Translations under genes and position numbers: made by a program
The notes under the pieces: generated by a model
Told to the model about the DNA's origin: nothing
Databases searched by the model: none
Seen by the model: the letters and a program-made list of their open reading frames with translations, nothing else
Assembly (NCBI GenBank): GCA_946481445.1
Contig: CAMLOA010000058.1
Coordinates: 1-8,433 of the forward strand
DNA from: an uncultured Devosia sp.
Lineage (GTDB): Bacteria > Pseudomonadota > Alphaproteobacteria > Rhizobiales > Devosiaceae
Direction of reading: 5' to 3'
Length of the DNA stretch: 8,433 nucleotides
In this document: positions 428 through 4,394 of the stretch, in pieces
How positions within the stretch are numbered: position 1 is the stretch's first letter
Layout: each line of letters begins with the position of its first letter

Positions 428-442
428 AAGGAGGTGATCCAG
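428..442 (+). promoter_or_regulatory. Extended Shine-Dalgarno (15-nt 16S 3'-end complement)
   Basis: The bases AAGGAGGTGATCCAG are the exact complement of the 16S rRNA tail CTGGATCACCTCCTT. Ordinary ribosome binding sites match 4-8 bases of this tail, whereas here the match covers the whole anti-SD region and includes the first base of the GTG start codon at 442. The core GGAGGT ends six bases before the start, which is ideal spacing. Confidence 0.7.
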
Positions 443-513
443 TGTCTTATGAGATTTTGGCGCTCGAAGAAGGTCTTGGATTTCAGGTGCTGACCGGGAG
501 GGACCTCGGCTAG
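442..513 (+). CDS. Putative 23-residue leader peptide
   Basis: A GTG start at 442 is followed by 22 further codons and TAG at 511-513. The product begins VSYEILALEEGLGF (initiator read as Met) and ends in LTGRDLG. It has no signal peptide, membrane segment or cysteine, and I do not recognise it. The case for translation is the exceptional ribosome binding site at 428-442 with perfect spacing. The case against is its length and lack of known relatives. The stop codon lies immediately before the anti-SD-like CACCTCACCTCC at 515-526, so a ribosome finishing the ORF would cover that segment and could keep the start site open. This is a plausible self-regulation loop. A second, overlapping frame (ATG 449 to TGA 491-493, 14 residues beginning MRFWRSKK) sits 14 bases from the SD core, so it is a poorer candidate. 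Confidence 0.45.
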   Translation: MSYEILALEEGLGFQVLTGRDLG

Positions 514-514
514 G

Positions 515-526
515 CACCTCACCTCC
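515..526 (+). promoter_or_regulatory. Anti-Shine-Dalgarno-like sequester element
   Basis: CACCTCACCTCC contains two overlapping copies of the CACCTC core. The 3' portion TCACCTCC is identical to the 16S rRNA anti-SD core and pairs over eight bases with GGAGGTGA at 430-437. In an RNA it would close a ~90-nt loop and hide the ribosome binding site of the small ORF. Function is inferred from complementarity alone. Confidence 0.5.
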
Positions 527-2057: not shown

Positions 2058-4394
2058 TCAGGACTTCGGCTCCGGCAGAACCGGCGGTGCTGGCCTCGGC
2101 GCCGCATTCTCGGCCTCGGCATCCGGCGCGTCAGTTCCGGCGGGTTCGTCGCTCGGCGGCGGGGCTATGCCCCCCTCGCTGGTTTCGTCCGCCTCCTGGG
2201 CCTCCAGTTCGGCCTCTGCCCTGTCCTGCTCGTCTGCTTCAGGTTCGGCAGGCAAGGGCGGAACGGGCACAACTTCGTCGATCTGCGCCGGCGCATCCCC
2301 GACAACGGGCACGATATCGGCCTCGTCCGCTTCCTGGGTTGCCTCGGCTGATTCCTCGGCCGGCGGTGGAGGCAAGACGATGACGGCATCCTCGGGCAAG
2401 GGCGATGCGACGACCGTGATATCATCGGGTGAAACAGGTGCAGCGTCCGCTTCGGCACCCGCCTCGCCCGCAGTGCTGGCCGGGGATATAGCTGCATCCG
2501 GGACCGCAGCTGCCGCAGCGGCAGCGGGCGCTGCCGCTTCCCGCGCCAGGATATTGTCCACCGGCGGGAGCCTGGGCTCGGCCGGCGCTGCCTCGGGCAT
2601 CCTTCCCTCCCCGCGCAGCCAGGCCAGGATGCCGCGGCCGATCTCGCGCTCGCCGCGGATGACGGTGGTCGCGCCCAGGCCGCGAACGAAGTTTTCCTCT
2701 TCCTCCGAATAGGCGCGCGCAATGATGGAAATGTCCGGATTGAGCTTGCGGCCCGACTCGCAGACCGACCCCGCCTCGAAGCCGTCGGAAATGGCGATGA
2801 GCAGATTGCGCGCCGCCCCGAGATTGGCGAGCTTGAGCACGTCCTCGCTGGCAGCATTGCCGAAGACCACTTCGAGGCCGGCTGCACGGGCGGCCGCGAC
2901 ATCATGATCGGAATCCTCGATCACGACGATCTCGCCGCCATCCTCCTTGATGCCGGCAGCGACGATCCGGCCAACCTGGCCGTAGCCGACCAGCACGGTA
3001 TGCCCGGTCTTGGTTGATGGTTCCCCGGTGTCGTCATCGGCGCCTGAAGCCCCGCTATCCACCGCCGCCTCCACCGGTGCATCGGTCGCTGCCGGCCCGC
3101 TGGCCGCGGCCGTCGGGGCTGGCTCGACCCTGGCCGGCTCGACGCCGGCCCGGCGCGCGACCCGCGCTTCCAGCCGTGGCTTGGCGAATTCCACCAGCCA
3201 GAACACCACCGGGTTGAGCACGATGGAAATCAGCGCGCCGGCCAGGATGAGATCCTGGCCTTCCGGCGGCAGGATGGCGAGCGAGACCCCGAGGCTGGCC
3301 AGGATGAAGGAGAACTCGCCGATCTGCGCCAGGCTGGCCGAAATGGTGAGCGCCGTGCCCACGGGACGACCGAACAGCAGCACGATGCCGAACGCGGCCA
3401 GCGACTTGCCGATGATGATGATGAAGACCGTGGCGATGACCGGCAGCGGATTGGTCAGGATGATCGAAGGATCGAACAGCATGCCGACCGACACGAAGAA
3501 CAGCACCGCGAAGGCGTCGCGCAGCGGCAGCGTTTCCTGCGCCGCACGATGGGAGAGTTCGCTTTCGGAAAGGATCATGCCGGCAAAGAAGGCGCCCAGC
3601 GCCAGCGAGACACCGAACAGGACCGAGGAACCCAGTGCCACGCCCAGGGCAATGGCCAGAACCGCAAGACGGAACAGTTCACGGCTGCCCGTATGGGCCG
3701 TCGCGTGCAGGGCCCAGGGGATGACGCGCCGGCCCACGACCAGCATGAAGCCGACAAAGGCCGCCAGCTTGACCAGTGTGAGCCCCAGCACGCCCCATAC
3801 GCCCACCTCCACGCCGAGAACCCGCTCGACGAAGGAAACGAAGGGATCGTGTATGCCCGTGTCGGTGCCGCCCAGGCTGGCGAAGGCCGGAATCAGCACC
3901 AGCGCCAGCACCATTGCCAGGTCTTCCACGATCAGCCAGCCCACCGCGATGCGCCCGCGCTCGCTCTCGATCAGGCGCCGGTCCTGCAGCGCCTTGAGCA
4001 GCACGACTGTCGAGGCCACCGACAGGGCGAGCCCGAACAGCAGGCCGGCTCCGACGCCCCAGCCCATCAGCAGGGCAAGGCCAAGCCCGAGCAGGGTCGC
4101 CAGCCCGATCTGCGCGATGGCCCCGGGAATGGCCAGGGCCCGAACGCTCATCAGGTCCTTGAGCGAAAAGTGGAGGCCGACGCCGAACATGAGCAGGATC
4201 ACGCCCAGTTCGGCCAGTTCGGCGCCTAGCGCCTGGTCGGCCACGAAGCCGGGCGTGTAGGGCCCGGCCATGACGCCGGCAAACAGGTAGCCAACCAGCG
4301 GCGGCAGCTTGAGCCGGTTGGCGATCATGCCGAAGATATAGGCCAGCACCAGACCCGCGACGATCGTTGTGATCAGGGGGGTGTCGTGGTGCAT
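2058..4394 (-). CDS. ybaL: YbaL-type cation:proton antiporter (CPA2/KefB-KefC family)
   Basis: This inner-membrane monovalent cation:proton antiporter is recognisably the YbaL branch of the CPA2 family; the N-terminus MHHDTPLITTIVAGLVLA and LAELGVILLMFGVGLHFSLK closely match E. coli YbaL as I remember it. Residues 1-405 form the Na_H_Exchanger membrane domain of about 12 helices, including the ion-path motif VEDL (156-159) and SELSHRAAQETLPLRDAFAV. A regulatory RCK/TrkA-N domain follows (about 463-595) with the nucleotide-binding glycine motif GYGQVG (470-475). Compared with the ~558-residue E. coli protein there are two additions: an Ala/Pro-rich linker (about 408-462), and a ~183-residue acidic Pro/Ala/Glu-rich tail (596-778) without recognisable fold. 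Start is ATG 4394 with GGAGG four bases upstream. TATAGA on the minus strand (4439-4444) could be a -10 box, but no convincing -35 is seen. Transported ion is probably K+ or Na+, by family. Confidence 0.93.
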   Translation of the reverse strand: MHHDTPLITTIVAGLVLAYIFGMIANRLKLPPLVGYLFAGVMAGPYTPGFVADQALGAELAELGVILLMFGVGLHFSLKDLMSVRALAIPGAIAQIGLATLLGLGLALLMGWGVGAGLLFGLALSVASTVVLLKALQDRRLIESERGRIAVGWLIVEDLAMVLALVLIPAFASLGGTDTGIHDPFVSFVERVLGVEVGVWGVLGLTLVKLAAFVGFMLVVGRRVIPWALHATAHTGSRELFRLAVLAIALGVALGSSVLFGVSLALGAFFAGMILSESELSHRAAQETLPLRDAFAVLFFVSVGMLFDPSIILTNPLPVIATVFIIIIGKSLAAFGIVLLFGRPVGTALTISASLAQIGEFSFILASLGVSLAILPPEGQDLILAGALISIVLNPVVFWLVEFAKPRLEARVARRAGVEPARVEPAPTAAASGPAATDAPVEAAVDSGASGADDDTGEPSTKTGHTVLVGYGQVGRIVAAGIKEDGGEIVVIEDSDHDVAAARAAGLEVVFGNAASEDVLKLANLGAARNLLIAISDGFEAGSVCESGRKLNPDISIIARAYSEEEENFVRGLGATTVIRGEREIGRGILAWLRGEGRMPEAAPAEPRLPPVDNILAREAAAPAAAAAAAVPDAAISPASTAGEAGAEADAAPVSPDDITVVASPLPEDAVIVLPPPPAEESAEATQEADEADIVPVVGDAPAQIDEVVPVPPLPAEPEADEQDRAEAELEAQEADETSEGGIAPPPSDEPAGTDAPDAEAENAAPRPAPPVLPEPKS

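Follow-up and report, generated by a model that had tools for sequence, protein, structure and literature searches.

The window analysed here, an 8,433-nucleotide stretch of DNA from an uncultured Devosia sp., contains a small RNA unit whose neighbours are the permease end of a transporter (BPD_transp_1) and, downstream of the unit, a PurU-like formyltransferase/ACT gene. All parts of the unit lie on the forward (+) strand. Its centrepiece is an exceptionally long Shine-Dalgarno sequence (super-SD), AAGGAGGTGATCCAG at 428–442, a complement of the 16S rRNA tail that reaches the GTG start codon (442–444) of a 23-codon open reading frame (ORF; 442–513, MSYEILALEEGLGFQVLTGRDLG) ending in TAG at 511–513. 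Shortly 3′ of this stop codon, a copy of the anti-SD, TCACCTCC (519–526), is complementary to 430–437, and a terminator follows at 554–582, where a strong GC-rich hairpin (ca. 554–577) precedes five T residues (578–582). An earlier note, made from the letters of the window alone, had pointed out the 15-base 16S complement in front of GTG, the anti-SD copy and the terminator, and all three were recovered in sequence and fold. The exact super-SD occurs once in the window, and allowing up to three mismatches yields two matches compared to a mean of 0.17 in shuffled sequences.

Upstream, TGGACA (378–383) and CATGCT (400–405), separated by a 16-nt gap, form a putative promoter (378–405) that we assign from our own by-eye comparison of Devosia units, while the terminator is assigned from RNA folding and the conservation of its stem; a strict consensus scanner run over 340–640 called neither promoter nor terminator. 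The probable 5′ leader, AUGUUCAACCAACGUG plus the SD (412–441), has a guessed transcription start, and a piece of it, TGTTCAACC, is strongly conserved across Devosia units. A longer ORF starting from the ATG at 412 was ruled out by stop codons between this ATG and the SD in six Devosia units (L014, L022, L029, L035, L036, and L037). Within the ORF, CTCGAA (463–468) is able to pair with 533–539 in the 3′ region, as suggested by folds and by the codon-8 covariation described below, and TTGGATT (476–482), a motif type present in 37 of 38 Devosia units, is a possible inner partner of GATCCAG (436–442) with two G·U pairs. Folds and the same covariation indicate that CGGCACTCGAGGCCG (528–542) may form a small hairpin or, alternatively, serve as partner of 463–468. 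At the foot of the terminator, positions 549–560 are strongly conserved as CTCAGGAAGGG in Devosia and GACAATGGAAGGG elsewhere. Further along the window, on the reverse (−) strand, a gene for an Rrf2-family regulator (1589–2017) adjoins one for a Na/H-exchanger plus TrkA-N protein (2058–4394).

For the 16S rRNA we used the tail of S. meliloti, GGCUGGAUCACCUCCUUUCU|AAGG, taken from the oligonucleotide table of PMC6943124, as a stand-in for that of Devosia: a search for the tail in eight Devosia genomes returned the opposite strand of the unit as sole match (five of eight), as if the rRNA genes were masked. With this reference, the window forms a duplex of 16 pairs at −29.2 kcal/mol, compared to −9.2 kcal/mol for AGGAGG alone, and the family consensus introduced below forms 17 pairs at −32.6 kcal/mol. 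Of 14 genomes searched, 10 have exactly one copy of the string AAGGAGGTGATCCA, which coincides with the unit locus in the seven Devosia genomes among them; the eighth Devosia genome, G005, carries GGTGGTCC at the same site and retains a G·U pair with 16S. The shorter AAGGAGGTGA occurs in 4–13 copies per genome in six Devosia genomes (reversed control, 1–7). In the portion of PMC4117421 available to us, 75.4% of Caulobacter coding sequences are reported to lack an SD and translation efficiency does not track SD strength, which makes an SD of such length an outlier.

A 201-base query spanning the unit found it in 37 of 37 Devosia genomes and gave a match of any kind in 40 of 61 genomes overall; one of the three matches outside Devosia contains the 5′ part and the other two just terminator-like sequence. 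In 38 of 38 Devosia units, which were collected by overall similarity, AGGAGGTG[AG]TCCA is present (A in 36, G in two), and both the frame and the length of the ORF, at 22–24 codons, are held. Three units (L025, L029, and L034) contain palindromic insertions of about 50–60 nt, of the GGAAAAGTGG...CCACTTTTCC type, between the stop codon and a retained anti-SD; these look like small mobile repeats. The earlier note had judged the complementarity to exceed chance, and its retention in every Devosia genome and in relatives across the class, together with the single genomic occurrence of AAGGAGGTGATCCA, bears this out and leaves coincidence a negligible explanation.

The unit is related to a known RNA family. 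The window has no match to Rfam at curated (gathering) thresholds, and positions 418–577 align to RF01867 (CC2171), an alphaproteobacterial family entered as a Caulobacter sRNA, with 41.5 bits and an E-value of 1.1e-7. Since this score lies under the 75-bit gathering cut-off, the sequence evidence makes the unit a divergent relative of RF01867 instead of a curated member, and the earlier expectation that a confident Rfam hit would identify it as a known element holds halfway. The RF01867 consensus opens with cAAcaAucGAAAGGAGGUGAUCCAGUGUCUCAU (its start is also given as CAACAAUCGAAAGGAGGUGAUCCAGUGUCUCAU), so the super-SD and the GUG start are features of the family. Its hallmark is GAAAGGAGGTGRTCC, a complement of the single-stranded 16S tail, followed by RTG-TCT ahead of a length-controlled ORF. 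Where the family has GAAAGGAGGUGAUCC followed by RUG-UCU, the window reads GUGAAGGAGGUGAUCCA-GUG-UCU at 425–447, with GAAA shortened to GAA, and, like the family, it is a free-standing unit with its own terminator, although the strict scanner missed the latter. The order of parts is identical. RF01867 differs in that its anti-SD lies inside the ORF, whereas that of the window lies behind the stop codon, and the pairing between SD and look-alike is absent from Rfam's structure. When this consensus structure is laid over the window, the terminator stem fits and the rest contains several non-standard pairs; Devosia folds otherwise.

A relaxed RF01867 search matched six of six relatives, 15 of 17 loci from the class (E-values up to 0.001), and three of four further loci. 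Of 289 genomes from the class, 66 have matches, 10 of them above the cut-off. In the phylum, 73 of 299 genomes have one, and the labels of all 73 place them in the same class or closer still; among 14 control genomes, Caulobacter vibrioides alone gave a match. The exact string AGGAGGTGATCCARTGTC is present in 21 of the 289 class genomes. All 30 class loci that we fetched show AGGAGGTG[AG]TC ahead of the start codon, a count to be read in light of a model that favours this motif and of weaker matches that were not fetched. Two loci on metagenome contigs (L152 and L178, one labelled Burkholderiaceae) have a super-SD before a 34-codon ORF, MSNRLSRS...; L152 is without RF01867 match. Our search of the open-licence literature brought up no study on the function of CC2171/RF01867. 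One published indication that the family is transcribed is the RNA-seq product of Mesorhizobium MH_s33, a candidate annotated as RF01867: the part of PMC5596092 consulted reports products for 34 of 35 non-riboswitch candidates, the exception being MH_s6. In Caulobacter, two RNAs earlier reported as non-coding are described as translated (PMC4117421, in part).

For comparative analysis, we assembled at least 211 units, which reduced to 189 unique sequences (38 from Devosia, 149 others, and two more from Devosia that were set aside) and were thinned to 33 Devosia and 128 other representatives. Six Azospirillum ORFs of 57–59 codons, six matches without start codon, and three at contig edges were kept outside the counts. 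Among the matches listed, loci L070–L189 were gathered with an exact pattern holding AAAGGAGGTGATCCARTGTCNNAT; because this pattern includes the super-SD, those letters are constant there by construction. Likewise, GAAAGGAGGTGATCCA occurs in 125 of the 149 unique units from outside Devosia, most of them gathered by a pattern containing it.

No gene family was found near more than nine of 132 units when flanking open frames, some of them false, were compared. The lack of a common flanking gene family points to a free-standing gene and makes attenuation, one of three roles proposed in the earlier note, unlikely. A leader or attenuator controlling the downstream purU-like gene would agree with the arrangement in the window, where the unit lies upstream of purU with a terminator in between; with flanking genes that vary between families, and with three Devosia units (L027, L028, and L031) that by eye have no purU behind them, we consider this role highly improbable.

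The length of the ORF is under clear control, 20–27 codons being found in 88% of the 128 representatives compared to 12% in shuffled sequences. The nucleotides are constrained: 121 of 128 units have TCT as second codon, the third base of which was left free by the collecting patterns, and TCT makes up about 7% of serine codons in flanking genes. Constraint on the peptide appears weak. Across 28 Devosia units, dN/dS is 0.67 overall, 0.40 in codons 2–13, and 1.1 in codons 14–23, and in 36 ORFs of 25 amino acids from outside Devosia it is 0.93. These values bear on the reading of the locus as an ordinary small-protein gene, with the super-SD providing very strong initiation and the peptide as product. 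Conserved ORF length and the low dN/dS of the first Devosia codons fit such a gene, as do the extended SDs that act in ordinary initiation in S. aureus (PMC13009471, seen in part), whereas the dN/dS values of the second half and of the 25-residue ORFs do not. Three peptides were without Pfam or NCBIfam family at cut-off, so long a complement occurs about once per genome, and the ORF strand pairs beyond what the peptide requires, as detailed below; an ordinary small-protein gene is in our judgement an unlikely account.

Other ORF lengths also occur. Eleven units from Bradyrhizobium and kin have 14-codon ORFs (MSYLKRCHLAGIAR and kin), among them the Bradyrhizobium loci L080, L086, L103, L114, L143, L144, L164, L174, and L180 and the Rhodopseudomonas locus L150. 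Within its ORF, this version carries TCACCTC and CTCGCTGG, with CCAGCGAG following downstream, apparently another set of alternative pairings. In the six Azospirillum units (L090, L100, L108, L147, L148, and L181), the super-SD precedes the 57–59-codon ORFs (MSHGASPVVAALFGLA...), which look like small secreted proteins.

Many relatives outside Devosia contain, inside the ORF, a look-alike of the 16S tail, CTGGATC-NNC-GCCTCC, that can pair with the super-SD and the start codon. Outside Devosia, the SD forms a stronger duplex with downstream sequence than it does in shuffled sequences (mean z −1.48; reversed control −0.5) or after synonymous recoding (z −1.17, n = 116). RNAalifold, applied to 82 of the 128 units (GTG start, MSH/MSD/MSN, 22–26 amino acids, terminator near), predicts a long hairpin in which super-SD, start codon, and codon 2 face GACCTGGATC..NCGCCTCC in the ORF, each of its 14 pairs being formed in 78–99% of rows. 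As the alignment itself could favour such a motif, we performed a gap-free test with 36 units that have 25-residue ORFs, anchored at the start codon. In this set, 79.7% of cells pair compared to 32–63% at shifts of 1–9. Synonymous recoding lowers the share to 69.1% (sd 1.3%), none of 500 recodings attaining the observed value, and shuffling the codon order lowers it to 45%. In these 36 units, selection thus acts on the strand as RNA, over and above what the peptide demands. Among 77 units with other ORF lengths, anchored at the stop codon, the paired register is faint (53.8%) and equalled at +3. The string CTGGRNY..GCCTC occurs in just 30 of 128 units, which makes the look-alike less a fixed string than a pattern of pairing. 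As a control, reversed GGAGG is of little use, being near-identical when read backwards, and GATCCAG is usable as probe: its full complement is present in 50 of the 128 units (reversed 18, shuffled 5) and in 21 of the 33 Devosia units (11 and 2). When the 5′ part is folded alone, the SD pairs downstream more often than in shuffled sequences (0.64 versus 0.475, n = 128), an excess that is absent when the whole RNA is folded (0.70 versus 0.75). Covariation between the start codon and its partner, considered as proof of the inner helix, was rejected: the association (Fisher 4e-4) vanished on the tree, where three independent pairs are supported, one in each direction and one neutral.

In Devosia, the anti-SD lies behind the stop codon. 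In 23 of 33 units, versus 3.4 expected, CCTCC lies no more than 25 nt from the stop, and the longest SD complement averages 7.5 versus 5.3 nt (30 units, the three with insertions excluded). The earlier note had suggested looking for covariation between 430–437 and 519–526; none is visible, and it cannot show, since the SD side does not vary. The anti-SD nevertheless shifts register, its match following the local flank, as in CGAAAGGA/TCCTTTCG of L037, and stays complementary. Folds of the 5′ part pair the SD downstream at 0.69 versus 0.51 in shuffled sequences (n = 33), but whole-RNA folds show no excess (0.73 versus 0.73), and the energy of the SD/downstream duplex equals that of the reversed control (z −0.38 versus −0.43). 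The window fold has a z of −2.67, one of 200 shuffled sequences being as stable. In this fold and in the consensus of 26 insertion-free Devosia units, the SD is mostly free and the ORF pairs with the 3′ region; the masked state is thus not the predicted ground state of the window, and the models leave it as a plausible alternative fold. Sequence variation gives some support to the ORF/3′ contact: the third, silent position of codon 8 and its 3′ counterpart read C-G in 21, T-A in seven, and C-A in one of the 29 of 38 units that could be scored (Fisher 5e-6), the lone mismatch, L023, possibly being a wrong parse. On the tree, two of two supported pairs agree, which is below significance.

At the level of sequence, the comparison shows a conserved 16S-tail complement at normal SD distance, a length-controlled ORF, RNA constraint within this ORF, and no common neighbour. 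On this basis we propose, with belief and doubt evenly balanced, that the locus encodes a small mRNA standing on its own, able to cover its super-SD and opened up by the 30S subunit. While closed, the RNA would have its super-SD paired with the look-alike of the 16S tail, which lies within the ORF or immediately behind it; in many relatives the start codon would be paired as well. A 30S subunit would open the RNA by displacing this lid pairing with its own tail and would then translate the ORF; as a ribosome would run across the look-alike, or sit on it, while translating or terminating, translation would keep the RNA open. The RNA would in this way report the supply of free 30S subunits. A translational switch is the best supported of the three earlier readings. 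Comparative support for self-masking is good in part of the wider family and weaker and mixed in Devosia, where 5′ folds and anti-SD speak for it and whole-RNA folds against.

The remaining earlier reading, an RNA acting in trans on 30S subunits or 16S precursors, whose binding would titrate ribosomes or affect maturation of the 16S 3′ end, with the ORF secondary, seems to us improbable. It draws on a complement that spans the whole single-stranded tail and includes GAUCACCUCC, the Era recognition sequence according to a reference title in PMC6943124, yet this complement ends short of the mature 16S 3′ end, one gene copy would require very high RNA levels, and the retained start codon, ORF length, and stop codon would be needless in a pure decoy.

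Returning to the self-masking mRNA, the novelty lies in super-SD and 16S-tail look-alike together as the principle that organises a known, unexplained RNA family. What Rfam lists as an sRNA has the appearance of a small mRNA whose SD is exceptional, in a bacterial class in which the SD matters little to many genes. If the lid truly imitates the 16S tail, the RNA would amount to a naturally occurring sensor of free 30S subunits, and we know of no RNA sensor of this kind. We tentatively extend this to a class of regulatory RNAs sensing ribosome supply, in which a full 16S-tail complement is combined with a tail imitation as lid and free 30S subunits are the opening ligand.

Individual elements of this arrangement have precedents. 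In E. coli gnd, an anti-SD within the coding region, the internal complementary sequence, lowers initiation and is linked to growth rate; gnd is an enzyme gene, however, whereas the unit described here has a 23-codon ORF on an RNA of about 170 nt. The type I toxin mRNAs aapA3 and hok, as covered in the consulted part of PMC6733600, are likewise small mRNAs with an SD masked by anti-SDs, some of them inside the ORF, but the three peptides examined here were without toxin-like family and the SD is far longer. The Caulobacter sRNAs SisA–D share the anti-SD motif and the bacterial class; these act as repressors of other mRNAs and pair with CrfA, and the parts of PMC12559287 examined do not mention a super-SD. 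The extended SDs of S. aureus resemble the super-SD in that pairing reaches towards the start codon, but they are widespread and, in the sections of PMC13009471 consulted, add two pairs, compared to 15–17 pairs at about one site per genome here.
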